Shown one piece after another: positions 1,028 through 20,200 of a stretch of DNA of 20,200 nucleotides. The notes under the pieces were generated by a model. The model did no database searches, was not told the DNA's origin, and saw only the letters and a program-made list of their open reading frames with translations. Location of the stretch: the NCBI GenBank assembly GCA_024699575.1, contig JAILPF010000532.1, forward strand, positions 1 through 20,200, written 5' to 3'. How positions within the stretch are numbered: position 1 is the first letter of the stretch; every line of letters starts with the position of its first letter. This stretch comes from Acetatifactor sp. GTDB lineage: Bacteria; Bacillota; Clostridia; Lachnospirales; Lachnospiraceae. Position numbers and translations under genes: made by a program.

Positions 1028-1039
1028 GAGGAAAAGTGT

Positions 1040-1954: not shown

Positions 1955-2016
1955 AACGGATAGGCAGATAAAAAAAGCTTTGTGATTTGTCTATTTGTAA
2001 ATATAATAAGATATAT

Positions 2017-2022
2017 GGAGGG
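2017..2022 (+). promoter_or_regulatory. RBS that fixes the binding-protein start
   Basis: GGAGGG, six bases before the ATG at 2029. It decides against the in-frame TTG 42 bases upstream at 1987, which would put 14 residues in front of the lipoprotein signal. Confidence 0.8.
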
Positions 2023-2028
2023 AAAGGT

Positions 2029-3748: not shown

Positions 3749-3760
3749 TCTGACACGATT

Positions 3761-3768
3761 TGGAGGGG
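3761..3768 (+). promoter_or_regulatory. RBS supporting a TTG start
   Basis: TGGAGGGG six bases upstream of the TTG at 3775. It points to this rare start codon rather than the in-frame TTG at 3760, which lies before the ribosome site itself. Confidence 0.7.
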
Positions 3769-3774
3769 CTGACA

Positions 3775-5310
3775 TTGATTAAAGTAGCAATCGTAGAAGA
3801 TGAAAAAATACTATTGGAAGATATTGAAGAGAGCGTGGACTGGGAGGCTATGGGCGCTGTGGTTGCTTTTACAGAGCGAAATGGGGTGAATGCGCTAAAG
3901 CATCTGCAGAAAGAACCGGTGGATGTTGTAATCACGGATATACGTATGCCTGTCATGTCAGGCATTGAGATGGCTGAAAAGCTCAGGGAGTCAAATTCTG
4001 AGACGCAGATTATCTTTTTGACGGGTTATGAAGATGTGGAATATATGAAATCAGCCATCCAGTTAGGTGCGGTATCCTATTTGGCGAAGCCTTTTCGGGA
4101 AGAGGAATTGCAAACTGCAGTGCAGAAGGCCGTAAAAAAAATGGAATTGGTAAAGAATGCAAACCTAGGGAAACAGACGCGATATGAAAACGAATTAAAG
4201 GATATTATTTTATCGAAAAGGCAGGAGAGTACCCTGTTAAAGACAGGAGAATATACGTTGATGATGGCGAAAATCAGCAGTTTTCCTGCCATATTTAACG
4301 CCAGAAACGCCATGGAGGTCAATTGGATTATCGATGAGGTGAAGGAAAGATTATCAGACTTCTTCGGGTGTCGGGCAGAGGAATCTATTATTCTGTATCT
4401 TTCGAAGGGACAGTTTTTGATTGCAGTAAAGCCACCAATCGCCTTTTCCTATTTGGAGGATTCGGATATGGAAGAGTTAAATGAGGGTCATGATACCGTT
4501 CAGATTACGCTTTTTTCACAACAAGAAAAAAATGTAGTCAGAGTGGAAGAATTCGGAAAAGTATATGAGGAATTAGTGGAACAGGTGAAGGAATCCTTTT
4601 ACACAGGCAGGGCATTCAGGAAACCGGATGAAAGTGCTGAATCCTATAAAAAAACACTCTGTTTACAACTGCCTACCTTGAGTGAGTATGATTTCAATCA
4701 TACGCTGAAAAATTATATGAACGCTGTAGTTACGTCTCGATTAAATCGCAAGAAGGTATTACATGATTGTTACGAAATCTGTTGTGCAATTTACGACACC
4801 TTTAATTACAGCTTTCAGAACAAAGAGGAGTTGAAGCTGGAAAAACACAATCTGGTGTTGGCTCTGGAGGAGTTCGATACGGTTGACGGTATCGAAAAAT
4901 TTATGAGAGATTTCTACGAAGTGCAGAATAAACGTGCCAATGATCCGGAAAAAGAGCAGGATGACGAAAAGATAGTACAGCGCATATTGTGTTATATCGA
5001 TGAGCATTACACAGAACCGATATCAGCAGAATCATTGGTGGAGGAGTTTTACTTTTCGTCGAACACAATTCGTGCATTATTTAAAAAACATACGGATCAG
5101 ACGATTCATGAGTATCTGAGTCAGGTGAGGATGGAAAGGGCAGCGGAAATGCTTCATAATCCCCACATCAAAATTAAGGAAATCGCAAACAGAGTGGGAT
5201 ATGATAACGTTTCTTATTTCTGCATGAGATTTTCCAAGGATTATGGGATGTCTCCGCTAGCTTATCGAAAAAAACATCTGAATGTAATCGGGAGAAGAGT
5301 TGATGATTAA
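3775..5310 (+). CDS. Response regulator, YesN type (receiver plus AraC DNA-binding domain)
   Basis: DNA-binding response regulator paired with the adjacent kinase (511 aa, usual for YesN-like proteins). The receiver domain occupies about residues 1-120. Its acidic pair is E8/D9, the predicted phosphoacceptor is Asp55 in V-V-I-T-D-I-R-M-P, and the conserved Lys is near 104 in Y-L-A-K-P-F. A long middle region of unknown fold follows. The last ~100 residues are an AraC-type double helix-turn-helix, with the family-typical second motif I-K-E-I-A-N-R-V-G-Y and S-Y-F-C-M-R-F. The start is a TTG behind a strong ribosome site. The gene overlaps the kinase start by 8 bases, so translation is probably coupled. 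Regulators of this type usually control nearby sugar transporter and glycosidase genes; here the transporter operon and the surface glycosidase are the obvious targets, by inference. Confidence 0.92.
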   Translation: MIKVAIVEDEKILLEDIEESVDWEAMGAVVAFTERNGVNALKHLQKEPVDVVITDIRMPVMSGIEMAEKLRESNSETQIIFLTGYEDVEYMKSAIQLGAVSYLAKPFREEELQTAVQKAVKKMELVKNANLGKQTRYENELKDIILSKRQESTLLKTGEYTLMMAKISSFPAIFNARNAMEVNWIIDEVKERLSDFFGCRAEESIILYLSKGQFLIAVKPPIAFSYLEDSDMEELNEGHDTVQITLFSQQEKNVVRVEEFGKVYEELVEQVKESFYTGRAFRKPDESAESYKKTLCLQLPTLSEYDFNHTLKNYMNAVVTSRLNRKKVLHDCYEICCAIYDTFNYSFQNKEELKLEKHNLVLALEEFDTVDGIEKFMRDFYEVQNKRANDPEKEQDDEKIVQRILCYIDEHYTEPISAESLVEEFYFSSNTIRALFKKHTDQTIHEYLSQVRMERAAEMLHNPHIKIKEIANRVGYDNVSYFCMRFSKDYGMSPLAYRKKHLNVIGRRVDD

Positions 5311-7075
5311 ACGTTGGAGAAAACTGAATTCAATCAATAGAATCATGATAGCGGTAACATTGACAGTGCTGATTTCTTTCGGTTTCTGTTCCGCGGGATT
5401 TATTGTAAAAATTCAGAGAGAGCTCGAAAAAAAGACATTATATGAGTTGGAACTGACAACGGAGCAGTTAAAGTCCAATCTAGATGTTGACATTCAGAAT
5501 ATTTTAAGTATCAGTGGATGGATTCTTTCGAATAACCAGTTATGTCAGGAACTGACCAAGACTTTTGAAAAACCTTATGATTATTGGGAGTTTTATGACT
5601 ATTTCGGGGAACTGTCTTCAGGGATTATGGAGATGGACAGTTACATCCACCTAATCACGGTATTTACCTCTAATGAGACGTTAAAGCCGGATAAAAAGCA
5701 TGTGCGCGACATCAATGAAATCAAAGATACAGAGATATACAGGGAAGTCTTAGAGAGAAAAGGCTCTGCGGTGTTTGGTATGATGCGGGATGCTATGCCG
5801 GAGGATTATTTTAAGTATAATCTGGCGTCAGACGGTGATAATCTTTGTATGTTACGGTTGATGGATTATCAGGGGACTCAGCAGATTTTGATGCTGGAGA
5901 TTAAACGAATGTTGTTTGTCAATGAGTTCTGCAGACAGTCAGACAAAGGAATGTTTGTCACAGATGCGTCCGGTGGTGTGCTGATGTACTATAATCGTGG
6001 CAAGAATCAGTGGAATGGAAATCTGACAAAAGACGCAATGGAGGAACTTAAGAAAGACAATATTTATATTGAACAGGTGTTGGACAATCAGTGGACGGTA
6101 ACATTGTTCCAGGGGAAAAACGAGTTATTTGCCAGTGTAAATCACAGTGTCAGAGAGTTGATAGTGTCGGGTTGCCTGATTGTTCTCTTAATGTTGGGTA
6201 TCATTCTGCTTGTGTTGCAAAAAACATCTACCCGTTTAAAGGAATTGAACTGTGTCATCCAAAAAGCGTATCTGGTCAGCAAAAACAGAGCGGAAGAGTG
6301 TGCCGTTTTGCAGTCGCAAACGCCTTCGGAGGAGGAGCAGGATGAGGTGGGCATGGTGTTGCATTCTTTCCAGAATTTGATGAACCGTGTGGATTATCTG
6401 ATGAAAGAGATTTATGAGAAAGAAATTGAGAATAAGACCATGGAACTGAACCTCCTGCATTCTCAGATTAAGCCCCATTTTTTGTATAATACGCTGTCCT
6501 CCATTGCTTCTCTTGCCAGAAAATATCAGGATAAGCAGCTGGTAGATATGATTACTTCGCTGTCGGAACTATATCGAACTTCTCTGAGCAGAGGTAAGGA
6601 TATTATCACGATTGAAAAAGAAATTGAGATGACAAAAAATTATCTGGTAATTATGGAAAACCGTTTTGAAGATATGATTCATGTCGAATTTAAGACAGAT
6701 CCGGAGGCTTTGCAGGGGTTGATCCCCAAAATTTTGCTACAGCCATTTGTGGAGAATTCCATCAATCATGCCATTCGACCGGATCAGATCCTGAACATCA
6801 TTATTGATATCCGTAAGGTGCATGAAAATGTGTTATTTCAGATATATGATGATGGTCTGGGGATGGATGACGATAAGGTAGCTGAGCTTTTGGATACGGA
6901 AACGATTCATAGCGAGAAGGAAAACGGATATGGAATTCCCAATGTTGCCCAAAGGATTAAGATTTTTATGGGAGAGCAGTACGGTGTCGAGATCCTAAGC
7001 AAGAAGAATGTGGGAACTAATGTAAAGATTACCGTTCCGTATTGGACGGAGGAGTGTGACTTCAAACGAAGTTAA
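5303..7075 (+). CDS. Sensor histidine kinase, YesM type
   Basis: Membrane sensor kinase of the two-component pair (590 aa). One membrane span lies near residues 14-37 and a second near 286-306, flanking an extracellular sensing region of about 245 residues. A HAMP-like and coiled segment leads to the HisKA_7TM-unlike 'His_kinase' domain of the LytS/YesM group, with the phosphoacceptor His392 in Q-I-K-P-H-F-L-Y-N-T-L. The ATP-binding part shows the N box L-Q-P-F-V-E-N-S-I-N-H-A, a D-D-G-L-G-M G1 box and a G-Y-G-I-P-N-V G2 box. The ATG at 5303 has GGAG eight bases upstream; an adjacent in-frame TTG at 5300 is less likely. The stop is followed by 114 bases before the surface glycosidase gene. 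The ligand is unknown; a carbohydrate sensed directly or through the binding lipoprotein is inferred. Confidence 0.93.
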   Translation: MIKRWRKLNSINRIMIAVTLTVLISFGFCSAGFIVKIQRELEKKTLYELELTTEQLKSNLDVDIQNILSISGWILSNNQLCQELTKTFEKPYDYWEFYDYFGELSSGIMEMDSYIHLITVFTSNETLKPDKKHVRDINEIKDTEIYREVLERKGSAVFGMMRDAMPEDYFKYNLASDGDNLCMLRLMDYQGTQQILMLEIKRMLFVNEFCRQSDKGMFVTDASGGVLMYYNRGKNQWNGNLTKDAMEELKKDNIYIEQVLDNQWTVTLFQGKNELFASVNHSVRELIVSGCLIVLLMLGIILLVLQKTSTRLKELNCVIQKAYLVSKNRAEECAVLQSQTPSEEEQDEVGMVLHSFQNLMNRVDYLMKEIYEKEIENKTMELNLLHSQIKPHFLYNTLSSIASLARKYQDKQLVDMITSLSELYRTSLSRGKDIITIEKEIEMTKNYLVIMENRFEDMIHVEFKTDPEALQGLIPKILLQPFVENSINHAIRPDQILNIIIDIRKVHENVLFQIYDDGLGMDDDKVAELLDTETIHSEKENGYGIPNVAQRIKIFMGEQYGVEILSKKNVGTNVKITVPYWTEECDFKRS

Positions 7076-7189: not shown

Positions 7190-10100
7190 ATGTGGAAGAA
7201 CGAGAATCACAACAGGAAGATGCGATGGCTATTTATGCTTGTGCCCATACTGTTGACAGGTTGCTTTGGGGACGCGTCAAAGTCAAGTGCTCAGGCAGCA
7301 GACACTAGAGGAGGACATCGGATTGTTTATGCCAAGGAGGCTAAAGATGCGGTTTTGACGAATGGGGCGTCAACAAACGTAGTTGACGATCTGGCAACCG
7401 GGAATAGAGTTACGATTGTGGGAGTCGGAACGGATAATGTGCCGGAACGTCCAAATGGAACCTGTACGTTTACAGATGTTTCTGTACCGGCAGAGGGGGA
7501 ATATCTGTTAAATTTGTATTATTGCGCAGATAACGATGACCGCTATTTTGATTTCTATGTGAATGGTGAGTATCGCAAAATACAGTGCCCGGCCAGTGGA
7601 CCGTGGTACACTGTAGGCATGTATCAGATCAGCGTGAATCTGAGTGCAGGGGTAAATGAAATCTCTTTTAACTGTGCCAGATGGTATGCGCCCAATCTGC
7701 AGAAGATTGAAGTGTTGGAACAGGCGATTACGATTGAGGCGGAGGACGGAGTACTGACGAATGGGGCAGGAGCCTTTAATGTCACTACACAGGAAGGTCA
7801 AAATGCAACGATTGTGGGGGTTGGTACAGATGCAGTGCCGGATCGCCCAAATGGAACCGTAACCTTTAGCAACATTATGGTACCGGAAGGAGGTACATAC
7901 GGGTTAGATTTATATTACTGTGCGGATAATGGGGACAGATACTTTGACATGACAGTCAATGGAGAATACCAAAAAGTGCAGTGTCCAGCCAGCGGACCGT
8001 GGTATACAGTAGGTGTATACCGAGTGAATATCCAGTTGAATGCGGGTGCAAATGAACTTGTCTTCAACTGTGTTTCCTGGTATGCGCCGAATCTGGACAA
8101 GATTGTGCTTACCAGATTGACGGAGACAGATGTACCCGGAGTCACACTGCAACGTGTGGTGATGGAGACAGAGGATGCTGCCTTGAGTAATGGGGCATCA
8201 CTAGATTCCACTGCTGAGTTTTGTTCGAATGCAGACAAGATAGACAACCTGGGAGGAGACCGGGATGGAAGCGCGTCATTTGATGTAACGGCGGAGCAGG
8301 ACGGAGATTACGGTCTGGTACTCAGCTATTGTACAGTGGACGCAAGAGAATTTGAGGTGATAGTCAACGGAGAGACGCAAACGATTGTCTGTCATAACTC
8401 TGGGGATTGGAATCGTCCAAATAATATTGTGATGGCAGTTCATCTGAATGTAGGGCAGAACAATATCACAGTGCACAATTCAAATGGCTACGCTCCCAAC
8501 TTGGACAAGATAGAAATATATCCTGCACAGGTGGTGGAAGCAGGGGATATCCGGTTGATATATGATGTGAGCAACGGAGTCTATTCCATTACTCAGAGGG
8601 GAAGAACCGTTGTCGAAGATGCATTTGCAAAGGTGGTTTTAAACGATACGGAATACACCAGCGCGCAGTATACGGAAAGAGACTTTGCGAGAGAGGTGAT
8701 TTCTGACAATTTTGGCAGTGGAATTTGTTTGACTGTAACCAATACGGCAGATGGTTTGGTGTCAATGGTACAGGAGTTTCGACTTTATGATCAGTTAGAA
8801 TATATGCTGATGAAGGTGACAATGGATGCCGGAAGCGGAAATGTGGCTACCAATTGGATTTCTCCGTTAACCACCAATAAAAGAGGAAGCGTAGAGAACG
8901 TCATTGGAGGATCCAATTATGTGATACGCACTCCCTATGACAATGACAGCTGGATCACCTACGATTTGCAGACAATCAATGGCTCCGGGGAAAGTTATGA
9001 GGTTACGGCTGTTTTGGATCAAACGCAAGGGGCGGGACTAGTACTTGGTTCTATTACCCATGATACATGGAAGACAGGAATCAGCTATACCGGAAGCAAT
9101 CAACAGATTGACAGACTGTCTGTCTACGGAGGTGCAAATTCTTCATTAACCAGAGACCTGGCACCTCATGGTACGGTCAGTGGTAACACAGTGGTATCTC
9201 CCACAATCATGGTGGGACATTTTGAGAACTGGGAAGAAGGGCTGGATGCATTCGGCGATGCCAATACCAAGGTAGTACCCACAAAGACAGCATATACTGA
9301 AAAAGTTCCGTTTGGCTGGAACAGCTGGGGAGCGATTCAGACGGATATCAATCTGAGCAAAGCAAATGCTATCTCCGATTATATTCATGATAATCTCCAG
9401 AGTGCATGGCTGGAGGATGAGACGGATGTTGTATATGTGAATCTGGATTCCTATTGGGATAATATGAGCGATGCACAGCTTGTACAGTTTGTGGAGCACT
9501 GTACAGCAAATGGACAAAAAGCAGGAATTTACTGGACTCCGTTTGTGGCATGGCATGGGCCGGATCAGATATATAATGCAAATGTAGAGAATACCAACGG
9601 ACAATATAAGATTGCAGATATTATTTTGCGGAAATTCAACGGTGAGATGTACGATAACAGTTTGGACGGTGCTTATCCTGTAGATGTAACACATCCCGGG
9701 ACAAAAGCAAGGATTGACTATTTTATAGACCGCTTTAAGACAGCCGGATTCTCGTATATCAAGCTTGACTTTATGACTCATGGTGCTTTAGAGGGAGTAC
9801 ATTACGATGCAACCGTTCAGACAGGAACACAGGCGTATAATCAGGCGATGCAGTATATCTTGGACCGAATCGACGGAACCATGTTTGTCAACTTGTCAAT
9901 TGCACCGACCTTCCCGTATCAATATGCAGATGGCAAACGTATTGCCTGTGATGCATACTATCGTATCAATGATACGGAATATACTTTGAATAGCTTGACA
10001 TATGGTTTTTGGCAGAAAAAATTATATCGTTACCCGGATCCGGACAATCTGATTGTATGGGGAAGGGATGGAAATGCGTCAATTCAGGAGGCAAGAAGCC

Positions 10101-10972
10101 GAGTGCTTTCCGGCGTTCTTCTTGGAACCAGCTTCATTGCAGGAGATGATTTCGCAAATCCGGTTGGAAATAATGTGGAAGCCAATCGTAGATTTACCAG
10201 CATATTGACAAATCCCCTGATCATCAGTACCGCAAAGATTGGTAAGGTGTTTCATCCAATTCAGGTGAATGCGGCAGAGCGGGCAGCAACACAGTTTGTG
10301 ATGCAGGATCAAGGGAATACGTTTGTGGCTGTATTGAATTATTCTGCGTCAAACAGAGATTACACAATAAATCTTACGCCCTATCTGCTTGCCGGTACAC
10401 AGTATGAGATGACTACGGCATATACAGGCAGTACATCGGATGTGCCTGCTAACGGTATGGTGACTATTTCAGTGGCTGGAAAAGATGGGGAGTTAATTCG
10501 GATTGCACCCAAGGAAACCGTGATGGCTCCACCTGAACCGGAGGAACAAGGTGAACAGGAACCGACTCAGACCCCCGAAGTGGAGGCGCCTGTAAAAGAG
10601 CAGCTCGAAGTGTTTGAGCCTGCAAAGGAGCTGACTAAGGTGTCGGAGCCTGCAAAGCAAGCAGGCAGTGACGTGAAGATTGTACCGCAGGATATCCTTA
10701 CCATTGCTGCAAATAATCAGAATAGTGCGAAGCCGGGGAAACGGGCAATGATTGATAAAACGCTGGAGAAGCCTACCGATAAAAACACCGAGGAAGAGAA
10801 AGAGATATTGAAAGAAGAGGAAAGTAGTTATATTCCGGAAACAGAAACGCCTACAACGGTGATGGAACAAAAGAACCCGGCTGGAGGGGTGTGGTTGTTC
10901 CTCGGAGGAGTATTCACAGGGGCAGCAACTTCTTTGGCAGCGACCTATTTCTTCTTTTTCAAAAAAAATTAG
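7190..10972 (+). CDS. Surface-anchored multidomain glycosidase (3 CBM-like domains plus GH-D-like catalytic domain)
   Basis: Large extracellular glycoside hydrolase, 1260 aa. A lipoprotein signal ends in L-T-G-C (Cys25). Three CBM35/CBM6-like beta-sandwich domains follow at about 46-178, 180-310 and 322-448. An N-terminal catalytic-module beta domain covers about 450-700, and a TIM barrel about 701-985 carries G-W-N-S-W-G (709-714). The predicted nucleophile is Asp860 in Y-I-K-L-D-F-M-T-H-G and the predicted acid/base is Asp921 in R-I-A-C-D; P-D-P-D lies at 949-952. A C-terminal beta domain runs to about 1107. These match clan GH-D (GH27/GH36, alpha-galactosidase-like), but the nucleophile motif differs from the usual ones. 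A Pro/Glu/Lys-rich linker (about 1110-1228) leads to a membrane segment (1233-1257) and a K-K-N tail; there is no clear LPXTG. AGGAGG lies before the ATG. First gene of a likely four-gene operon. Alpha-galactosidase-type activity is likely; the real substrate is unknown. Confidence 0.88.
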   Translation: MWKNENHNRKMRWLFMLVPILLTGCFGDASKSSAQAADTRGGHRIVYAKEAKDAVLTNGASTNVVDDLATGNRVTIVGVGTDNVPERPNGTCTFTDVSVPAEGEYLLNLYYCADNDDRYFDFYVNGEYRKIQCPASGPWYTVGMYQISVNLSAGVNEISFNCARWYAPNLQKIEVLEQAITIEAEDGVLTNGAGAFNVTTQEGQNATIVGVGTDAVPDRPNGTVTFSNIMVPEGGTYGLDLYYCADNGDRYFDMTVNGEYQKVQCPASGPWYTVGVYRVNIQLNAGANELVFNCVSWYAPNLDKIVLTRLTETDVPGVTLQRVVMETEDAALSNGASLDSTAEFCSNADKIDNLGGDRDGSASFDVTAEQDGDYGLVLSYCTVDAREFEVIVNGETQTIVCHNSGDWNRPNNIVMAVHLNVGQNNITVHNSNGYAPNLDKIEIYPAQVVEAGDIRLIYDVSNGVYSITQRGRTVVEDAFAKVVLNDTEYTSAQYTERDFAREVISDNFGSGICLTVTNTADGLVSMVQEFRLYDQLEYMLMKVTMDAGSGNVATNWISPLTTNKRGSVENVIGGSNYVIRTPYDNDSWITYDLQTINGSGESYEVTAVLDQTQGAGLVLGSITHDTWKTGISYTGSNQQIDRLSVYGGANSSLTRDLAPHGTVSGNTVVSPTIMVGHFENWEEGLDAFGDANTKVVPTKTAYTEKVPFGWNSWGAIQTDINLSKANAISDYIHDNLQSAWLEDETDVVYVNLDSYWDNMSDAQLVQFVEHCTANGQKAGIYWTPFVAWHGPDQIYNANVENTNGQYKIADIILRKFNGEMYDNSLDGAYPVDVTHPGTKARIDYFIDRFKTAGFSYIKLDFMTHGALEGVHYDATVQTGTQAYNQAMQYILDRIDGTMFVNLSIAPTFPYQYADGKRIACDAYYRINDTEYTLNSLTYGFWQKKLYRYPDPDNLIVWGRDGNASIQEARSRVLSGVLLGTSFIAGDDFANPVGNNVEANRRFTSILTNPLIISTAKIGKVFHPIQVNAAERAATQFVMQDQGNTFVAVLNYSASNRDYTINLTPYLLAGTQYEMTTAYTGSTSDVPANGMVTISVAGKDGELIRIAPKETVMAPPEPEEQGEQEPTQTPEVEAPVKEQLEVFEPAKELTKVSEPAKQAGSDVKIVPQDILTIAANNQNSAKPGKRAMIDKTLEKPTDKNTEEEKEILKEEESSYIPETETPTTVMEQKNPAGGVWLFLGGVFTGAATSLAATYFFFFKKN
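7325..8533 (+). repeat. Three tandem carbohydrate-binding-like domain repeats
   Basis: Three consecutive domains of about 130 codons each (about 7325-7723, 7727-8119 and 8153-8533). Copies 1 and 2 are close, sharing V-G-V-G-T-D, R-P-N-G-T, Y-Y-C-A-D-N and C-P-A-S-G-P-W-Y-T-V-G. Copy 3 is clearly related (E-D, L-S-N-G-A-S, Y-A-P-N-L-D-K-I) but diverged. All end with Y-A-P-N-L-[DQ]-K-I. This fits an old duplication followed by a more recent one. Confidence 0.85.
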
Positions 10973-11030
10973 AGCAAGATTTCACAATCATTCAGCAAGA
11001 AACAGTAATGTATATTGCCATTGCATTAGT

Positions 11031-11036
11031 TATAAT
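11031..11036 (+). promoter_or_regulatory. Possible -10 element or palindrome before the DUF5107-TPR gene
   Basis: A perfect TATAAT lies in the 95-bp gap after the surface glycosidase gene, overlapping the inverted repeat CATTA-GTTA-TAATG (11024-11037). No matching -35 is visible. There may be an internal, regulated promoter here, but read-through from upstream is equally possible because no terminator is seen in the gap. Confidence 0.28.
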
Positions 11037-11055
11037 GACAACAAAAAAAGCCAAT

Positions 11056-11060
11056 GGAGG
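11056..11060 (+). promoter_or_regulatory. RBS that fixes the DUF5107-TPR start
   Basis: GGAGG seven bases before the ATG at 11068. The open frame extends 59 codons further upstream into the end of the preceding gene, but that stretch lacks a ribosome site and overlaps the coding region of the preceding gene. Confidence 0.75.
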
Positions 11061-11067
11061 AATCGCT

Positions 11068-14000
11068 ATGAAGCAGGCAGTATCGATATGGGAGGAAACG
11101 GTTATCATTCCGACCTATGAGGTGGGGGAACCGGATAAAAACCCGATGTTTCTTGAAAAGAGAGTGTATCAGGGAAGCAGTGGAAAAGTATATCCATTGC
11201 CCACGATTGAAAGCATTTCTGATCAAAAGGTGGAGAAAGAGTATCGGGCGGTTTTTTTGGAGAATGAGTACTTAAAGATAATGGTCTTGCCACAGCTGGG
11301 CGGTAGAATTCAAAGAGCATATGACAAGACCAACGGTTATGATTTTGTATATTACAATGAGGTAATCAAACCGGCATTGGTTGGTCTGGCAGGTCCGTGG
11401 ATTTCGGGAGGAATTGAGTTTAACTGGCCACAGCACCACAGACCGACCACATTCTCCCCGGTAGAACATCTGATCAGGGAGAATGAGGATGGCAGCAAGA
11501 CAGTTCTGTTAAGTGAATTGGATGTGATGAACGGCACGAAGGGGATGGCAGCGTACACCTTGTACCCGGACAAAGCCTACATTGAGATCAAAGGGCAACT
11601 TTATAATAAAACGTCTCTCCCACAGACATTTCTCTGGTGGGCGAATCCGGCGGTCAGTGTCAATGACAATACCTATTCGGTGTTTCCGCCGGATGTGCAT
11701 GCGGTCTATGACCATGGAAAACGAGATGTCTCGGAATTCCCGATTGCAAAAGGGATTTATTACAAGATGGATTATTCTGCTGGGGTGGATATTTCCAGAT
11801 ATAAAAATATTCCAGTTCCCACCTCATACATGGCATATCGCTCCAATTATGATTTTGTGGGAGGCTATGACGAAGGGGTACATGCTGGCATTTTGCATAT
11901 TGCAGATCATCATATCTCTCCGGGGAAAAAACAGTGGACCTGGGGATGTGGTGATTTCGGTAAAGCCTGGGATCGGAATCTGACAGATGAAAATGGCCCA
12001 TATATTGAACTGATGACAGGCGTGTTTACAGATAACCAACCGGATTTCACATGGCTGAAACCGGCGGAGGAAAAGAGTTTTACTCAGTATTTTATGCCTT
12101 ACAAAGAAGTGGGAATGGTGAAGACTGCGAAGGTGTGCGGGGCACTGGGAGTAGAGGAAGCAGCAGAAGGCGACAAAATTCGTATATGCATTAAGCTATA
12201 TATGACAGGCGTGTATCAGAATATTAAAGTCAGCATCTTGTCGGAAGGAAAAGAATTGTTTTGCGAGACACTGACAGAGATTTCCCCCAAGCAGGCGTGG
12301 TGCAAAAATGTTCTGCTGGATGCCAAAGCTTTGCCCCTTGAATACGTGGTCTGGGATGAAGATGATCGTCAGCTATTGTATTATAAGGCTGAAGAGGGCG
12401 AGATTGAGATTCCGGAGCCTGCCCGTCCTGTAAAGGCGCCCGAAGAGGAGGAGAACCTGGAAGATCTTTATCTGATCGGTCTACATTTGGAGCAGTATCG
12501 CCATGCAACTTACGAACCGTCAGATTATTACAGGGAAGGACTTCGAAGAGATCCTTCGGATATCCGGCTCAATACCGCATACGGAACACTGTTGCTGCGC
12601 CGGGGCTTATTTGAGGAAGCTAAGTCTTATTTTAAACGTGCTATTTTAAAGCTAAAGCATTATAATCCCAATCCCTACGATTCTGAGGCTATGTACATGG
12701 CAGGTCTCTGCGATTTTTATCTGGAGAATGAGAGTGAGGCCTATGCCATGTTTCGGAAAGCGGCATGGTCCAAGGAACAGCAGGAAAACAGCTTCTATTA
12801 TGCGTCCTGTATTAAAGCCGGACAACATGATTACGTAGAAGCTCTGGCATTGATCGATCAAGCCTTGATTCGAAATACACATAATATGAAAGCGAGAGGG
12901 CTGCGCAGCAGTCTGCTGAGAGTATTGGGACGCGGTGCTGAGGCTGCGCAATTTGTAGAGGAAACATTGAAGCTTGATCCCTTTGATTACCGGAGTCTTT
13001 ATGAACAGTTTTTGCTATGTCAGGACAGAATGAGCAAAAAGGAGCAGGAAAATGCTTTGAGCGAAATATGCCAAAGAATAGAAGACAAGGTAAATAACTA
13101 TCTGGAGTTGTCCATGGATTATGGCGAGGGAGGCTTCTGGGCAGAAGCAATCAAAATCTGTGAAATGTGCTGTGTTAATCATCCGATGATTGGTTATTAC
13201 CAAGGATATTTCCATCAGAGACAGGGGGAGGAAAAGCTGTGCGAGGAAGCGTGGAAACGTGCGGCAAAGGCGCCAAGCGACTATTGCTTTCCCAACAAGC
13301 TGTGGGATATTCGTGTGCTGGAGTCTGTGCTTCAGAGACATCCCGAGGATGGGTATGCGTGGTATTATCTGGGAATTCTGTGGTATGACAAAAAGCAGTA
13401 CGAGAAAGCACGACATTGCTATGAACAGAGTATGGCTTTCATTCCGGACTTCCCAACAGTTCATAGGAATATGGCATTGTACGAATTCAATAAAAATCAT
13501 GATGAAAAAAGGGCAAGGCTGGAAATGGAAAAAGCGTTTGCTCTGAATACCGGGGATGCCAGAGTTTTCATGGAGTTGGATCAGCTCTATAAAAAACTGT
13601 GCTTTTCTGTGAAGGTGCGACTTGCCAATATGGAAAAGTATCCGGAGTTGCTGAAGCAGAGAGATGATTTGTACACCGAATATATCACCCTACTGAATTT
13701 GGATGGTCAATATCAGAAAGCTTTGGACTGCTGTATGGAGCATCAGTTTCATCCCTGGGAAGGGGGAGAAGGAAAAATCTCCGGGCAGTATGTCTTTTCC
13801 CTGTTGCAACTGAGCAAAAAGATTCTTCACCAAAAATCGGCAGACGTAAAGGAGATAGAACAGGCGATTCAGTATTTGGTGCAGGCAAAGAGCTATCCGG
13901 ATAATCTAGGGGAAGGGAAACTTTTCGGTGCAAGAGAAAACCATCTGGATTATTATTTGGGCTGCTTATTTGAGAAAGCAGGGAACACGGAACAGGCAAA

Positions 14001-14391
14001 CAGGCACTGGAAAGATGCAGCGCAAGGTAAATTTGAACTCGGAAACGCTATGTATTACAATGACCAACCGGCGGACAGATGCCTGTTTCAGGGGCTTGCT
14101 CTACAAAAGCTGGGAAGAAAACAGGAGGCGGAGACCATCTTTACTGCAATGATGGAGTATGGAACATCGCATATGGAAGATCATCTGAAAATGGATTATT
14201 TTGCAGTTTCGCTACCCGATTTCCTCATTTTTGATGAGGATCTTGATAAAAAAAATCGAGTACACTGCAATTACCTGATTGGTCTGGGTAGACTGGGGCT
14301 GTGTGACGAGGAGGGAGCACACAATGCATTCGAACAGGTTCTGAAGCTGGATTGTGCCCACATTGGTGTCGCCGAGTTTAGTGAATTGTAA
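11068..14391 (+). CDS. DUF5107 domain and TPR-repeat protein
   Basis: Cytoplasmic two-part protein of 1107 aa with no signal peptide or membrane span. Residues about 40-345 match the DUF5107 pattern, related to the galactose-mutarotase beta-sandwich: V-L-P-Q-L-G-G-R-I at 73-81, G-G-I-E-F-N-W-P-Q-H-H-R-P at 114-126 and a late W-G-C-G-D-F-G-K-A-W-D block at 292-302. A second beta-rich segment reaches about 450, then an acidic hinge. From about 466 to the end, helical repeats with TPR features dominate (for example L-L-R-R-G-L-F-E-E-A-K-S-Y-F-K-R-A). DUF5107-TPR proteins are seen in sugar-use loci, but no established activity is known to me. The conserved Glu117 and the His pair 123/124 are candidate active-site residues. 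It sits between the surface enzyme and the AraC regulator in the same orientation, with a 42-bp gap downstream, so it is probably in that operon. It could process the imported sugar or act as a scaffold. Confidence 0.85.
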   Translation: MKQAVSIWEETVIIPTYEVGEPDKNPMFLEKRVYQGSSGKVYPLPTIESISDQKVEKEYRAVFLENEYLKIMVLPQLGGRIQRAYDKTNGYDFVYYNEVIKPALVGLAGPWISGGIEFNWPQHHRPTTFSPVEHLIRENEDGSKTVLLSELDVMNGTKGMAAYTLYPDKAYIEIKGQLYNKTSLPQTFLWWANPAVSVNDNTYSVFPPDVHAVYDHGKRDVSEFPIAKGIYYKMDYSAGVDISRYKNIPVPTSYMAYRSNYDFVGGYDEGVHAGILHIADHHISPGKKQWTWGCGDFGKAWDRNLTDENGPYIELMTGVFTDNQPDFTWLKPAEEKSFTQYFMPYKEVGMVKTAKVCGALGVEEAAEGDKIRICIKLYMTGVYQNIKVSILSEGKELFCETLTEISPKQAWCKNVLLDAKALPLEYVVWDEDDRQLLYYKAEEGEIEIPEPARPVKAPEEEENLEDLYLIGLHLEQYRHATYEPSDYYREGLRRDPSDIRLNTAYGTLLLRRGLFEEAKSYFKRAILKLKHYNPNPYDSEAMYMAGLCDFYLENESEAYAMFRKAAWSKEQQENSFYYASCIKAGQHDYVEALALIDQALIRNTHNMKARGLRSSLLRVLGRGAEAAQFVEETLKLDPFDYRSLYEQFLLCQDRMSKKEQENALSEICQRIEDKVNNYLELSMDYGEGGFWAEAIKICEMCCVNHPMIGYYQGYFHQRQGEEKLCEEAWKRAAKAPSDYCFPNKLWDIRVLESVLQRHPEDGYAWYYLGILWYDKKQYEKARHCYEQSMAFIPDFPTVHRNMALYEFNKNHDEKRARLEMEKAFALNTGDARVFMELDQLYKKLCFSVKVRLANMEKYPELLKQRDDLYTEYITLLNLDGQYQKALDCCMEHQFHPWEGGEGKISGQYVFSLLQLSKKILHQKSADVKEIEQAIQYLVQAKSYPDNLGEGKLFGARENHLDYYLGCLFEKAGNTEQANRHWKDAAQGKFELGNAMYYNDQPADRCLFQGLALQKLGRKQEAETIFTAMMEYGTSHMEDHLKMDYFAVSLPDFLIFDEDLDKKNRVHCNYLIGLGRLGLCDEEGAHNAFEQVLKLDCAHIGVAEFSEL

Positions 14392-14418
14392 GGAATAAGT
14401 AATTTATCGGTAGGAATG

Positions 14419-14425
14419 AAAGGAG
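14419..14425 (+). promoter_or_regulatory. RBS that fixes the AraC-type regulator start
   Basis: AAAGGAG eight bases before the ATG at 14434. An upstream in-frame ATG at 14416 directly abuts this site and has no good ribosome site of its own. Confidence 0.7.
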
Positions 14426-14433
14426 TGCCCCAC

Positions 14434-15285
14434 ATGAAGACAAAGGAAAAAGGTGTTCAAAATCAATCAGATGTCTATTTTGTATCGCCCAGTAATCTGG
14501 CATTGAACACTTTCCTGTATGTAACCTGTGTGGGGCATTTTTTCTATGAAGATGATTATCATTTATGGAGAGAGAATTATAACAGCTATTTATGCATGTA
14601 TCTGGTGAAGGGAAAAGCGAGAATTATGTCCGGGGAGCAAGCATATTTGGCGAAGCAGGGTGATTTTGTCTATTTGGATTGTTATAAACCCCATGGTTAT
14701 GAAGCAGTATCGGATTTGGAAACAATTTGGTTTCACTTTGACGGAGTGGGTGCAAAGCAGATAAATGCAGCTCTTCAGGAGTTGGATACAGTTGTTTTTA
14801 CATTGAGTGATAATACGCGTGCGGTACATTGTATGAAACAGATTTATGAGAATTATTGCAGAAGAAATCCGAGGAGTGAACCGGTTATCAGCTCTGTGAT
14901 CATGGCAGTGCTGGCAGAGCTGTTCCCAAGTTCACAGACCCGTGTCAATAACAAGAGTATGGTTGAGGCGGATATCATGGAACAGACATTTGAATATGTG
15001 AGGCAACATTTAAGCGATGAGTTGACGTTGGAAGTGTTGGCAACACAGGCATCCTTAAGTAAATTTTATTTTTCGCGTGTTTTTAAAAAGGAAACAGGAT
15101 TTACACCGCATGAGTATGTTTGTAAGGCGCGACTTAACTATGCAAAGGAGCTGTTGCGCGGCACGGATTGCATTTTGCGTCAGATTGCTCATCAGTGTGG
15201 GTTCCCGGATGAATCCAGCTTTTCGGCTGCCTTCAAAAAGAATGTGGGACTGACACCGGGTGAATTTCGCAGAATGAAACTTTAG
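14434..15285 (+). CDS. AraC-family transcriptional regulator with cupin sensor
   Basis: One-component DNA-binding regulator, 283 aa, typical length. The N-terminal half is an AraC-type cupin, with a Y-L-V-K-G-K-A-R-I strand, a G-D-F-V-Y-L-D-C-Y-K-P-H-G-Y sugar-pocket loop and I-W-F-H-F-D-G. The last ~100 residues hold two helix-turn-helix motifs: L-T-L-E-V-L-A-T-Q-A-S-L-S then R-V-F-K-K-E-T-G-F-T-P-H-E-Y, and I-A-H-Q-C-G-F-P-D-E-S-S-F-S-A-A-F-K-K. It follows the DUF5107-TPR gene by 42 bp and precedes the mutarotase-like gene by 21 bp. It probably responds to an intracellular sugar from this pathway and acts on promoters in this cluster, with the divergent region at 18188-18438 a likely target. 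This is inference from context. Confidence 0.92.
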   Translation: MKTKEKGVQNQSDVYFVSPSNLALNTFLYVTCVGHFFYEDDYHLWRENYNSYLCMYLVKGKARIMSGEQAYLAKQGDFVYLDCYKPHGYEAVSDLETIWFHFDGVGAKQINAALQELDTVVFTLSDNTRAVHCMKQIYENYCRRNPRSEPVISSVIMAVLAELFPSSQTRVNNKSMVEADIMEQTFEYVRQHLSDELTLEVLATQASLSKFYFSRVFKKETGFTPHEYVCKARLNYAKELLRGTDCILRQIAHQCGFPDESSFSAAFKKNVGLTPGEFRRMKL

Positions 15286-15306
15286 AATGGATTGTGAGAT
15301 AATAAT

Positions 15307-16194
15307 ATGTTGGAATATTGTCGATTGGAAAATGGGAATTTGACTGTGGAAGTGGTGCCCGAGAGAGGGGGGAAAACCATTTCCATTTTTGATAAGTTAC
15401 ATAAATTTGAGTTGCTTTTTCAGAGAGCGGACTTTGGAACCAGAGCGGTTGACATTGGATCGCCCTTTGGACAGGGGGATGCGAGTGGATTCGATGATGC
15501 ATTTCCTGGGATTGATCGGGAACAAGTGATGATCAATGGTGAGACCGTCGTATATCCGGATCATGGAGAGGTCTGGAGCTGTCGGATGGACAGGATAGAT
15601 TTTGATGACAACTGTGACAAACCTTATATAGTGTTGGCGATGGATAGCAGGATTCTGCCCTATCATTATGAGAAAAAGATACAACTGACCGACAGCAATG
15701 AGGTGACATACTCCTATCTGATTCAGAATACCGGAACATTCGCGTTTCCCTGTCTATGGGCCTGTCATTGTCTGGTGCGTTATGAGGAGGATATGCGGTT
15801 GATTTATCCGGAAGGGGTAACAGAGTTTCAAACTGTCCTAAATCAGGAAGCTTATCCGCCCAGATATGATTATGGCAGAGTACCTCCCCGACAGATGGCT
15901 TCCATGGTAAAGTATTATGCTCTCGGAAAAGTGAGCAGAGGATATTGCGGATATGACTACCCAACACAAGGGATGCAGTGCAGATTCCATTATGATTCTG
16001 AGAAGCTTCCCTATCTTGGCTTTTGGTTGACCGCCGGGGGCTATCAGGGGGATTATAACTGCGCGTTGGAACCCACTAACGGGTATTATGATAATATAGC
16101 GACAGCTCGTAAAAATCATGCCTGTTATAGCCTTATGCCCGGCGAAACCTTTCAATTTGATTTCAAGGTGACTTTGAATCCTATCACTTTTTAG
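15307..16194 (+). CDS. Aldose 1-epimerase (galactose mutarotase)-like protein
   Basis: Cytoplasmic 295-aa protein of the galactose-mutarotase-like beta-sandwich superfamily. V-V-P-E-R-G-G-K-T-I-S near residues 16-26 matches the usual N-terminal strand and turn. F-D-D-A-F-P at 62-67, H86 in P-D-H-G-E-V-W, H154 in W-A-C-H-C-L and E255 in A-L-E-P-T-N-G-Y are the counterparts of the substrate-binding and catalytic residues (His and Glu) of aldose epimerases. It could equilibrate sugar anomers released by the cytoplasmic glycosidases, or belong to a related branch with another task. The start is ATG at 15307 with only a weak GTGAG upstream, so expression may depend on coupling to the regulator gene 21 bp before. 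Its stop overlaps the end of the convergent glycosidase gene by 11 bp. Confidence 0.82.
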   Translation: MLEYCRLENGNLTVEVVPERGGKTISIFDKLHKFELLFQRADFGTRAVDIGSPFGQGDASGFDDAFPGIDREQVMINGETVVYPDHGEVWSCRMDRIDFDDNCDKPYIVLAMDSRILPYHYEKKIQLTDSNEVTYSYLIQNTGTFAFPCLWACHCLVRYEEDMRLIYPEGVTEFQTVLNQEAYPPRYDYGRVPPRQMASMVKYYALGKVSRGYCGYDYPTQGMQCRFHYDSEKLPYLGFWLTAGGYQGDYNCALEPTNGYYDNIATARKNHACYSLMPGETFQFDFKVTLNPITF

Positions 16195-18187
16195 CTCGAA
16201 GCAATAGGGATTGCTTTGGTTCTAAGTGGATGGTAAATTTCTCTCCTGTGTAGGTTTGTAAGCCGTCCAGAGTCTCGAAGGACGGACTGTCAGGCAGTTG
16301 TCCCAGCCGCTTGGTGTCAATCACAACGGAAGATGTGGTGGTTTCAAAATTGAATACAGCCACATAGCAGGCATCCTCATCTTCACGGTAAAAAATACGA
16401 CTGGCGCGGTCCGATGTTGCCATTTCCACTGGGAGGAAAGTGGTGCCTTTTTTGGCGATGGAAAGCAATTCGGGCGTAAGAAGCTTTTGGGTGCGCGCAA
16501 AGGCTTCCGGAATCCGGTAGTCATCGCTTAACAGGAGGACAGTGCCGGAGATGACAGATGCTAACAGTCTGGTTTCGGCTTCCAGCTCGTCGGATACATC
16601 TCTCCAAACGCACTTATAGATACAGGTGTGATCCGGGTCATTGTAGGTATAGATGGTCTGGTTCTGCCAAAATCCATAGGTCAGTGAATTCAGCAGATAT
16701 TCCGTGTCATATATCTGACCAAAAACATCGCAGGAGATTCTTCGGGAATGAGCGAACTGATAGGGAAAAATCGGTGCGATGGAAAAATCAACGAAGATAT
16801 CTCGTCCTGCATTTTCCGGGGATAAAAAATTTAACATATGGGTGAGACCGTAGCAGTAGGCTTCCACACCGGTGCTGATTGTATGCAGATAGTGGATGCC
16901 TTCACAACTTCCATGGGACATAAAATCCACCTTGAGATAATCAAATTCCAAATCTACAATCATTTTCATCATGGCTTCCACCCGCATGAGGTTTCCGGGA
17001 TGAGTCGGGTCGATTGGGTAGCCACCGGAAATCGGGGGCAATGGTTGCCCATTTGCATCACGTAAGAGTATGTCTCTGTAAGTATACTGATTGTTCGTAT
17101 TTTCAACTACCTGATCAAAATTCTGAGTCCAGCAGGTAAACGGAGTATAGTAAATGCCGGCCTTCTGACCACGGCTGTGAATGGTACTTACTGCCTGCTT
17201 CAGCTCCTGCGGTGTCAATCTATCCCAGAATGAGTCGAAGTTTAGGTATACAGTCTCATTATTTTCAAATCCCTGTTCCTGAAATTTTGCAAGAGCTTTG
17301 CTGGCTTCATCATACACTTCATAACTGAGATTTGTGGCAACACATGCCCAGCTGTTCCAACCGAAGGGAACACCATGTTTCCATGGCAACCTTGGCTGGT
17401 ATAAGGTATTGGCATTGCCATAGTCGATCAACCCTTCTCGGATATCCTCATAATATCCCACGAGAACCAAAGGTGAAGAAATCTGTTTACCACAGACCTC
17501 TCCATGGGGCATGGCCGTATCTCTGGTAGTGGCATCGGCCACACCGCCATAAATGGTGAGCATGCTCAAAGAACCATATCCACCGTGGGTATTGATTCCT
17601 GTTTTCCAGTGGTCGTGAGAGATGGAACCGATGACATAACCGTTTCTGGAGACATCGTCATAAACGGCAGTCACCTCATAGCTGATGCCACATTCCTGCA
17701 GCTCCTGTGCCTTGTAACGAATCCATTTATCGTTGTCATATGGGACATAGAGCAATCTTGGGCTTAAGGCATTGCGAAGAGAAAAGACATCTCCGTGTGC
17801 TGAAAGAGGAGACATATAATTGCTTCGAATAAAATCAGCTCCTTCCAGCTCAAGCTGGACAAGAAAGTAACGTGATGAGTCGTAAAACTGAAAGTGTTGA
17901 TGGATGGATAGTAAACCATAGGAATGTGTCACAATGACTTCCATTCCTTCGCCAAAGGAATTCGAAACTGCGTTGGAGTAGATACGGGCTTCCTGACCAA
18001 TCAGTACTGCCTGTGTGAACATCAGATTCTGAAAACGATATTCAAATCCACAGCCCTGTAGCATTGGATAGATGGATTCGGTGAATTCCACATCATATAA
18101 TTTACTGTCTTTGTGATAGGTAAAAATCAGCATTGGTGTGGTTACGCGAAAAAAGTCCGTTGTTTCTTTTGCGATGCACTGCGTCAT
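16184..18187 (-). CDS. Cytoplasmic GH-D-like (alpha-galactosidase-type) glycosidase, paralogue of the surface enzyme
   Basis: A 667-aa glycoside hydrolase without signal peptide, hence cytoplasmic. It aligns end to end with residues about 450-1107 of the surface enzyme: shared P-Y-D-N-D-x-W-I (149-156), S-Y-E-V-T-A-V, H-W-K-T-G-I, P-F-G-W-N-S-W (274-280), G-G-Y-P-I-D-P-T-H-P-G and D-T-E-Y-L-L-N-S-L-T-Y-G-F-W. The predicted nucleophile is Asp421 in Y-L-K-V-D-F-M-S-H-G, the predicted acid/base is Asp487 in R-I-S-C-D, and N-D-P-D at 516-519 is as in GH27/GH36. It lacks binding domains, linker and membrane tail. The ATG at 18187 is preferred over an upstream in-frame ATG at 18247, because AAAGGGAG lies eight bases before it and the upstream ATG coincides with the predicted -10. 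It likely cleaves imported oligosaccharides. The gene is transcribed against the operon and overlaps it by 11 bp at the 3' end. Confidence 0.9.
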   Translation of the reverse strand: MTQCIAKETTDFFRVTTPMLIFTYHKDSKLYDVEFTESIYPMLQGCGFEYRFQNLMFTQAVLIGQEARIYSNAVSNSFGEGMEVIVTHSYGLLSIHQHFQFYDSSRYFLVQLELEGADFIRSNYMSPLSAHGDVFSLRNALSPRLLYVPYDNDKWIRYKAQELQECGISYEVTAVYDDVSRNGYVIGSISHDHWKTGINTHGGYGSLSMLTIYGGVADATTRDTAMPHGEVCGKQISSPLVLVGYYEDIREGLIDYGNANTLYQPRLPWKHGVPFGWNSWACVATNLSYEVYDEASKALAKFQEQGFENNETVYLNFDSFWDRLTPQELKQAVSTIHSRGQKAGIYYTPFTCWTQNFDQVVENTNNQYTYRDILLRDANGQPLPPISGGYPIDPTHPGNLMRVEAMMKMIVDLEFDYLKVDFMSHGSCEGIHYLHTISTGVEAYCYGLTHMLNFLSPENAGRDIFVDFSIAPIFPYQFAHSRRISCDVFGQIYDTEYLLNSLTYGFWQNQTIYTYNDPDHTCIYKCVWRDVSDELEAETRLLASVISGTVLLLSDDYRIPEAFARTQKLLTPELLSIAKKGTTFLPVEMATSDRASRIFYREDEDACYVAVFNFETTTSSVVIDTKRLGQLPDSPSFETLDGLQTYTGEKFTIHLEPKQSLLLRAKK
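16199..16217 (+). terminator. Weak terminator-like hairpin after the mutarotase gene
   Basis: A 7-bp stem AAGCAAT / ATTGCTT with an AGGG loop begins 5 bases after the stop codon and ends in only three T residues. It lies inside the 3' end of the opposing gene. It is the only hairpin seen near the operon end; its termination strength is doubtful. Confidence 0.3.
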
Positions 18188-18438: not shown

Positions 18439-20200
18439 GTGAATACAAATAGAAAAGATTTTATAATTGACAGGATTCCCATGCAATTTTCAGAAGGCCC
18501 ATTTTGGGGGAATGGCGTGATTGGTACAGTCATGTATGTAAAGGACAACGAACTGATTTTCTCAGTGGATCACGTTAATATCTGGGAGCTTCGGGAGGAA
18601 CTTCCGGATCAGCCGAAAGCAGATTTCCAAACAATTTTGAATCATCAACAGGAGTTTCTTCATGGGGACAGGAACTATGTGGAGGATACCGATATTTTTC
18701 ACCGTGGTCACGGTAGAACAAAGCTTCCAGGGCTTGGCGTATCCCTGCCTCTCAGAAGTACTGTAAAGAGCTTTTCTTCTTCTCTGAACCTGAAGGAAGC
18801 CTACGCAGATATAGAGCTTACGCTTGCAGATGGTTCCGAGGTGCCGCTCATAGTCTATGTGGATTCAAACGTAAATATATTATTCATTGATGTAAAGGGA
18901 GGACATGCGTCAGATGCTAAAATGCGCGCGCTAGGTTGGGATTATGAGAGCCCTCGATTATCCGTTCTTAAGAACTGGAATTATCCGCCTTGCAAGGAAA
19001 AGCATGATACCGATACCTTTGCAATGCTCCAGGAATATTCAGAGGATGGAATCGCTGTGCTTGCTGCCAGACAGGAAAAAGTGGGGGACACTCTTAGAGT
19101 AGCTGTCTCTATGAATGCCGGAAAGGTTCAAGATGAAGAAAGTATGCTGACCCAAGGGCTTATACTTGCGAAGAATTATATGGAGGATTCCAAGAAGTAT
19201 TTTTATGCCCATAAAGCTGATTGGAAAAATTACTATGCAGGCTTTGATGTGCATGTGCCAAATGAGAGACTGCAAGAAGCTTTTGATACGGAGATGTATA
19301 AGCTCTACTGCAATGAGAGAAGTACTTCGGTGCCGGTAACACTTCAGGGTGTTTGGAACAGCAACGAGAGAATGCCGGCCTGGTATGGGGATCTGCACAA
19401 TGATTTGAATGTAGAAGCGTGTTACTGGGCAGCCTTTCGTACCGGGAACGCAAATCTGGCAAGACCTTATGTGGAGTATTATACTGCGGCTGCCAGGCGG
19501 TTAGAAGAACGTGCATATAAGTTATTTGGAGTGGAGGATGCGATTCATATTCCGATTATGATGGCACCGAATGGGTACGGTGCTGCTTCCGAATGGTGCT
19601 TTTGGAACAGTATTTTAGGACCGGAGCTGTTTGTCGCAACGGATTTTTGCTGGTTCTATGAATATACACAGGACCGGGACACTTTGAAAACAAAAATTTT
19701 ACCTTTTTTAAAAAAGGTAGCGAATCTCTATATTGGAATTGCCGAGGAAGATTCAGATGGTTTCCTACATATCCCGTTTACTTGTTCACCGGAGTTTTTT
19801 GCGGAGGGCACTATGCTGATGCAAAGGGATGCTACATTTACGATATCTGTTCTTCATTATCTGATGGATAAGATTAAAAAATATGGCGAGCTATTTGGGG
19901 AGGATACAGGCAAGTGGACAGAATTCGGCGAGAGGCTTACGCCTGTGACCACGGATGACACCGGATTTCCATTATTCCCGGGCATCGACTTGCCGGAATC
20001 CCACAGACATTTTTGCCATATGTTTCCTATTTTTCCACTCTGTACGGAATCCCATAATGTGATTTCCAATCGTTCACTGGATCATGTGATTAATCTGGGA
20101 TTTGGAGAATATGCGGCATTTTCCTTCCCTTATATGTCAGTTATGGCATCCAGATGCGGAAGGGGAAATATGGCGGAGACTATGCTGGATTTATACTGTA
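18439..20200 (+). CDS. GH95-like glycosidase (alpha-L-fucosidase/galactosidase type), 3' end beyond the window
   Basis: Open frame of 587 codons running off the window end; no signal peptide, so cytoplasmic. The N-terminal domain has G-P-F-W-G-N-G-V-I-G-T-V and N-I-W-E-L-R, matching the G-N-G-x-x-G and tryptophan block at the start of GH95 proteins. The helical barrel begins with V-T-L-Q-G-V-W-N (GH95 proteins have N-L-Q-G-x-W-N). Then come D-L-H-N-D-L-N-V-E-A-C-Y-W at about 318-330, F-T-C-S-P-E-F-F with the candidate catalytic Glu452, and E-S-H-R-H-F-C-H-M-F. Where characterised GH95 enzymes carry two Asn in the N-x-N motif, this protein has Asp322 and Asn324. The C-terminal part, which would contain the last catalytic Asp, is outside the window. 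GH95 enzymes are alpha-1,2-L-fucosidases or alpha-L-galactosidases; this divergent member may act on another sugar. Start: GTG with GGAGGGG upstream. Confidence 0.8.
   Translation, partial: MNTNRKDFIIDRIPMQFSEGPFWGNGVIGTVMYVKDNELIFSVDHVNIWELREELPDQPKADFQTILNHQQEFLHGDRNYVEDTDIFHRGHGRTKLPGLGVSLPLRSTVKSFSSSLNLKEAYADIELTLADGSEVPLIVYVDSNVNILFIDVKGGHASDAKMRALGWDYESPRLSVLKNWNYPPCKEKHDTDTFAMLQEYSEDGIAVLAARQEKVGDTLRVAVSMNAGKVQDEESMLTQGLILAKNYMEDSKKYFYAHKADWKNYYAGFDVHVPNERLQEAFDTEMYKLYCNERSTSVPVTLQGVWNSNERMPAWYGDLHNDLNVEACYWAAFRTGNANLARPYVEYYTAAARRLEERAYKLFGVEDAIHIPIMMAPNGYGAASEWCFWNSILGPELFVATDFCWFYEYTQDRDTLKTKILPFLKKVANLYIGIAEEDSDGFLHIPFTCSPEFFAEGTMLMQRDATFTISVLHYLMDKIKKYGELFGEDTGKWTEFGERLTPVTTDDTGFPLFPGIDLPESHRHFCHMFPIFPLCTESHNVISNRSLDHVINLGFGEYAAFSFPYMSVMASRCGRGNMAETMLDLYC

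Follow-up and report, generated by a model that had tools for sequence, protein, structure and literature searches.

An exported and a cytoplasmic glycosidase from a seemingly uncharacterised lineage of the alpha-galactosidase superfamily in an Acetatifactor contig

A single contig of Acetatifactor sp. (Lachnospiraceae; assembly GCA_024699575.1, contig JAILPF010000532.1), analysed here in its entirety as one 20.2-kb window, encodes two homologous glycosidases, which we call A and B. With moderate confidence, we judge that one is the exported and the other the cytoplasmic representative of a single uncharacterised lineage of retaining exo-glycosidases in clan GH-D of the glycoside hydrolases (GH), and that both act on the same sugar residue around a shared importer. 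A (1260 amino acids; 7190..10972, forward strand) carries a lipobox, three carbohydrate-binding-like domains and a catalytic part, and B (667 amino acids; 16184..18187, reverse strand) consists of the catalytic part alone and is predicted to be cytoplasmic. Together with their database relatives they make up a large branch of the alpha-galactosidase superfamily that seems to be uncharacterised and may constitute a new family within clan GH-D. The original prediction, made from the sequence, had described paired homologues of this kind, one exported with three binding-like domains and one bare, and both genes, with all three of the motifs it listed, are present as described.

The layout of A runs from the lipobox (LTGC, residues 22-25) through three domains resembling carbohydrate-binding modules (CBMs) of the CBM35/CBM6 type (approximately residues 46-176, 182-310 and 323-443, the first boundary being an estimate; 7325..8518, forward strand) to the catalytic part (8522..10564, forward strand), a charged linker and a fairly hydrophobic C-terminus. 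The Pfam model CBM_35 matches three stretches of the protein and CBM_6 matches two, and CBM chains from the PDB align to residues 94-165, 182-310 and 221-308. The C-terminal segment has a 19-residue hydrophobicity mean of 1.47, borderline for a membrane anchor, and ends in KKN; if this segment and the lipobox are both genuine, A would be doubly anchored. The start of B is ATG 18187, where a ribosome-binding site is visible. The protein has no signal peptide, and none of the 19-residue windows in its first 60 residues is strongly hydrophobic (maximum 0.62).

The two proteins are 41% identical across B residues 71-622 (E 5e-125; the query was a longer open reading frame of B of 687 amino acids, whose residues 91-642 correspond to these), so the motifs they share, YIKLDFMTHG (856), RIACD (917) and DTEYTLNSLTYGFW (928) in A and YLKVDFMSHG (417), RISCD (483) and DTEYLLNSLTYGFW (494) in B, reflect homology. 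Chance resemblance is ruled out by this homology and by the conservation of the motif columns among 381 distinct family proteins, a set made of the best-listed matches and the loci examined rather than of every relative (236 shorter than 800 amino acids, 145 longer). A and B are the sole matches at E 0.001 within the assembly, which is 77.8% complete. In the databases the two queries match 917 and 1075 proteins, sets that may overlap, and many of these bear the name 'alpha-galactosidase', apparently assigned automatically from distant similarity. Scanning genome contigs with only B as query confirmed no relative, whereas a profile scan found 418. We found no characterised member of the family in the open literature, CAZy and most subscription papers lying outside that search.

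Structure models of both proteins (predicted local distance difference test, pLDDT, 93.9 for A residues 445-1125 and 95.9 for B) adopt the clan GH-D fold in a GH36-like three-domain architecture, with an N-terminal beta supersandwich, a TIM barrel and a C-terminal beta sandwich. They also show the catalytic layout of the clan, a GH27/GH36-type barrel with two catalytic Asp residues, the nucleophile lying in a K-x-D stretch that follows one of the barrel strands. For both models the top Foldseek match is FpGalNase, the GH36 galactosaminidase of Flavonifractor plautii (8x1b, 9awt), which aligns over the N domain, the barrel and the C domain at 12-14% identity and, unlike the A/B family, retains an Asp-Asp pair, D346-D347; it is reported to work alongside a deacetylase on blood group A (PMC11762096). 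The GH36 alpha-galactosidases of Thermotoga maritima (5m1i) and Geobacillus (AgaA, 4fnr) have the same three-domain architecture as A and B, but their profile link to the family is weak, all 19 GH36 rows keep the Asp-Asp pair and the GH36 model PF02065 matches none of 25 scanned family members. GH97 enzymes (SusB, 2jka; BT1871, 3a24) are alike in their beta domain and barrel and rank high for the model of A.

No Pfam or NCBIfam model reached its cut-off on the catalytic part of A or of B, the only sub-threshold match of B being PF08924 (E 0.068). The other GH36 models, PF16875 and PF16874, like PF02065, gave no match at E 1 in the 25 members or in A and B, and the GH31 model PF01055 and the GH97 model PF10566 were likewise unmatched by all of them; the GH27 model PF16499 matched one of the 25, weakly (E 9e-4), and neither A nor B, and PF17801 (Melibiase_C) matched 14 of the 25. 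The suggestion of a distinct subfamily is supported to the extent that Pfam's GH36, GH31 and GH97 models fail to recognise the lineage and its GH27 model barely does so.

Profile comparisons place the family near GH27. The best PDB matches in a profile search were 3cc1 (the BH1870 protein, which we take to be a GH27 protein; E 2.7e-9) and Abp (4nx0, a GH27 beta-L-arabinopyranosidase; E 5.6e-9), with the best stretches in the C-terminal sandwich. These two nearest proteins share with the family a GWNSW motif, the K-x-D stretch and the C-terminal sandwich, although in VIA alignments GH27 chains match only from about residue 257-270 onward, the N-terminal beta domain being absent in GH27. Using template profiles that are shallow (4-25 sequences, all from Paenibacillaceae loci), profile-profile comparison gave the family E-values of 8.6e-22 against Abp-type GH27, 6e-15 against canonical GH27, 9e-4 against GH36 (probability 23%) and 0.012 each against GH31 and GH97, the last template holding 4 sequences. 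As yardsticks, the two GH27 arms match each other at 3.9e-39 and canonical GH27 matches GH36 at 2.5e-12. Because the family's best value falls between these two, it is placed, on profile evidence, outside the two tested GH27 arms yet closer to GH27 than GH36 is. The original call of a GH-D-like enzyme is thus borne out both by the folds of the models and by the profiles.

Six residues (B numbering) are invariant in all 381 family proteins: Asp318, Lys419, Asp421, Phe422, Arg483 and Asp487. From the models, the motifs and the column counts, we infer that the nucleophile is Asp421 in B (16925..16927, reverse strand), which follows strand 417-420, and Asp860 in A (9767..9769, forward strand), within YIKLDF at 856. 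The predicted acid/base is Asp487 in B (16727..16729, reverse strand), after strand 481-483, and Asp921 in A (9950..9952, forward strand), within RIACD at 917, an assignment made from the R-x3-D spacing and the invariance of the column, the hhalign alignment being gapped there. The unusual nucleophile signature that first drew attention to the locus is real, but it is no oddity of the locus, since its K-x-D-F core is invariant across the family.

A stronger deviation, absent from the original list, concerns an Asp-Asp pair where strand 2 ends: the family has lost its second Asp. At position 319 the 381 proteins carry Ser (265), Ala (113), Gly (2) or Cys (1), and never Asp, while the aligned column holds Asp in 15/15 canonical GH27, Asp in 19/19 GH36 and Ile in 6/6 Abp-type GH27 rows (for GH27, the 21 of 30 loci with the needed motif were counted and the other nine left out). 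In B this residue is Ser319 (17231..17233, reverse strand), ungapped in the profile alignments, and in A it is Ser754, within NLDSYW at 751 (9449..9451, forward strand). The missing pair separates the family from the canonical arm of GH27 only, as the Abp-type arm lacks it too; Abp, 20% identical in the profile alignment, has Ile67 where the family has Ser or Ala. Judging from the reported crystal structure of Abp, galactopyranosides would probably collide with Ile67 (PMC4598101), and because position 319 is never Asp, we think that the C6 side of the sugar pocket is altered in the A/B family.

One possibility, which we hold tentatively, is that the family specialises in a C6 variant of galactose, such as beta-L-arabinopyranose, 6-substituted or 6-deoxy galactose or a uronic acid, with Ser or Ala opening the pocket beside C6. 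Consistent with it, the equivalent GH27 position, Ile67 of Abp, is reported to bias against galactose (PMC4598101); the determinant of SaArap27A is reported to lie near O6 (PMC10688797); the Abp arm is the nearest by sequence; and GH36 neighbours that retain the Asp-Asp pair could handle plain alpha-galactose. Against it, Ser and Ala are small, whereas Abp blocks C6 with a bulky Ile, and a Pfam scan of 50 neighbour proteins revealed no gene of an arabinose or uronate pathway.

Phylogenies separate the exported from the cytoplasmic enzymes. A quick tree of 131 proteins divided 64 rows, 57 of them labelled exported, from 67 rows, 63 without signal (support 97 in the Shimodaira-Hasegawa-like approximate likelihood ratio test), and an IQ-TREE analysis of 60 proteins under a C20 mixture model set 26 proteins, all exported, apart from 34 others, 30 of them without a signal (support 100/100). 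Both trees draw on searches that used A and B as seeds, and both are rooted at the midpoint; the 60 proteins were hand-picked from the 131 with four long-branch rows omitted, and export was assigned by a hydrophobicity rule rather than by SignalP, and P0090 is probably mislabelled in the larger tree. An Armatimonadota-type pair (L158/L180) lies on the exported side of the 131-protein tree and on the opposite side of the 60-protein tree. A belongs to the exported clade and B to the mainly cytoplasmic one, with Paenibacillaceae members in both, beside A and beside B. The proposed outside/inside pair therefore reappears in the trees as an old split, and a local duplication producing A and B is ruled out by their positions in different well-supported clades.

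The distribution of the pair is uneven. In a phylum sample, 10 of 299 genomes match at E 0.001 and only three, the source genome included, have full-length matches. Within the source genome's family only four of 397 genomes match, itself included, and neither of two listed congeneric genomes does, so the locus is accessory within that family. Among Paenibacillaceae, 85 of 295 genomes match at E 1e-50, and 79 of the 85 have at least two matches. For closer comparison we used 75 named loci, the best of the 418 relatives, some of which share a contig and whose flanks reach about 10 kb; the fetched flanks of 74 contained a short and a long member in 36 cases, a short member only in 34 and a long member only in 4. 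Three Lachnospiraceae loci (L184, L185 and L199) hold a tandem of two family members together with a GH36 gene. At L185 one member is exported by the hydrophobicity rule and the other is not, and both fall within the mainly cytoplasmic clade, a possible separate gain of export.

The age of the two clades is also what would be expected if A and B divided their work, with A adapted to a polymer and B attacking another linkage or residue in the oligosaccharide that is imported. At residue 320, Tyr occurs in 134 of the 145 long members and Phe in 183 of the 236 short ones, and columns 277, 417 and 486 vary mainly among long members. We nevertheless find such a division rather unlikely, given that Asp318, Lys419, Asp421, Arg483 and Asp487 are identical throughout and residue 319 is small in both length classes. 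That A and B are ordinary alpha-galactosidases, divergent GH27 or GH36 enzymes cleaving plain alpha-D-galactose with Ser or Ala neutral and another residue holding O6, seems improbable to us: many public records are so named and the fold and catalytic residues agree, but the names look automatic and no family protein has Asp at 319, as against the Asp-Asp pair of every canonical GH27 and GH36 row, some of these rows being neighbours of the family.

Our preferred reading remains that of one lineage acting on the same residue outside and inside the cell. A, held at the surface and aided by its three sugar-binding domains, would trim end residues off a polymer or sizeable oligosaccharide; the products would be imported via the ATP-binding cassette (ABC) importer; and B would remove the same kind of residue inside the cell. 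Catalysis would proceed by retaining double displacement, and the residue would be bound without the Asp that adjoins O6 in canonical enzymes. The released residue would most likely be galacto-configured, alpha-D-galactopyranosyl or the like-shaped beta-L-arabinopyranosyl, and we favour an end residue of alpha-D-galactoside or beta-L-arabinopyranoside type. The target may be a branched, fucose-bearing plant-type glycan that a GH95 enzyme co-processes. This sequence of outside trimming, import and inside finishing fits the importer, sensor-regulator and GH95 neighbours. A more specific version, which we put forward as conceivable rather than probable, is a GH-D lineage of about family rank that joins a GH27-like core to a GH36-like N-domain, has lost the O6-side Asp, acts not on plain galactose but on C6-modified galactose, L-arabinopyranose or another such sugar and, through an old duplication, gave Lachnospiraceae and Paenibacillaceae a surface and a cytoplasmic enzyme for the same residue.

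Upstream of A, the forward strand carries the two permeases of the ABC oligosaccharide importer (77..1954), its solute-binding lipoprotein (1987..3690), and an AraC-type response regulator (3760-5310) and sensor kinase (5300-7075; together 3760..7075). Homologues occur among the named loci at 55 (permeases), 51 (binding protein, as a cluster), 55 (response regulator) and 46 (kinase); GH95 occurs at 22 and a GH36 cluster at 11. In Anaerocolumna sp. AGMB13025 (L193) the kinase, regulator, binding protein and both permeases stand together with homologues of B (59%) and A (59%). Scanned examples of Paenibacillus-type loci also contain genes for GH36, GH110-like, GH2 and GH78 enzymes and for GH27 with S-layer domains. 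Such neighbours suggest that the target is a plant-type glycan, branched and terminating in galactose-like and fucose-like residues.

Downstream of A, on the same strand, lie genes for a protein with DUF5107 and TPR domains (11068..14391, ATG 11068 being taken as the start), an AraC-family regulator (14416..15285) and a DUF4432/aldose-1-epimerase-like protein (15307..16194; PF14486 at E 1.7e-6, under the Pfam cut-off, and a weak PDB match, 3ty1, at E 0.007). The DUF5107-AraC-DUF4432 order recurs beside a B homologue (63%) on a Herbinix contig (L136, 4253-9981), where the DUF5107 protein is 66% identical and A does not appear in the fetched stretch. B and the DUF4432-like gene are convergent in the window and overlap by 11 bases; in Herbinix they are co-directional.

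Beyond B, a divergent GH95-like enzyme (18439..20199, forward strand; start read as GTG 18439) is truncated by the contig end (PF22124, E 3e-29; PDB fucosidase chains, E 3e-11). It belongs to a divergent group with the motif WYGDLHNDLNVEACYW and a DUF5703-like N-terminus; similar motifs occur at L056 and L199, and Paenibacillus GH95 rows have a different motif where one was found. We dropped a His/Thr position of GH95 as a clue to L-fucose or L-galactose, since this position is reported not to set specificity (PMC8245568). At another locus (L134, 9926-15297) three genes follow a B homologue (53%) at intervals of about 30-40 bases; they encode a class II aldolase, a PfkB sugar kinase and a protein with weak similarity to sulfoquinovose isomerase, which scores 99 bits where the cut-off is 700. 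They might process the sugar released by B, but we regard this only as a lead, since none of the three recurs at the other loci compared.

Bifidobacterial arabinogalactan clusters (GH39 GAfase/AAfase, GH36) likewise combine a secreted enzyme bearing three galactose-binding-like domains with an ABC importer and a GH-D enzyme (PMC10688797). There the secreted enzyme is a GH39 that releases a disaccharide, whereas in the present locus the exported enzyme and the internal one are paralogues. Paralogues outside and inside the cell beside one importer allow a clean test of how the degradation of a single glycan is apportioned by the cell, and the lineage may help explain how GH27 and GH36 diverged. 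If its specificity differs from that of known alpha-galactosidases, the label 'alpha-galactosidase' that many of its members carry would mislead predictions of the glycans that gut and soil bacteria eat.

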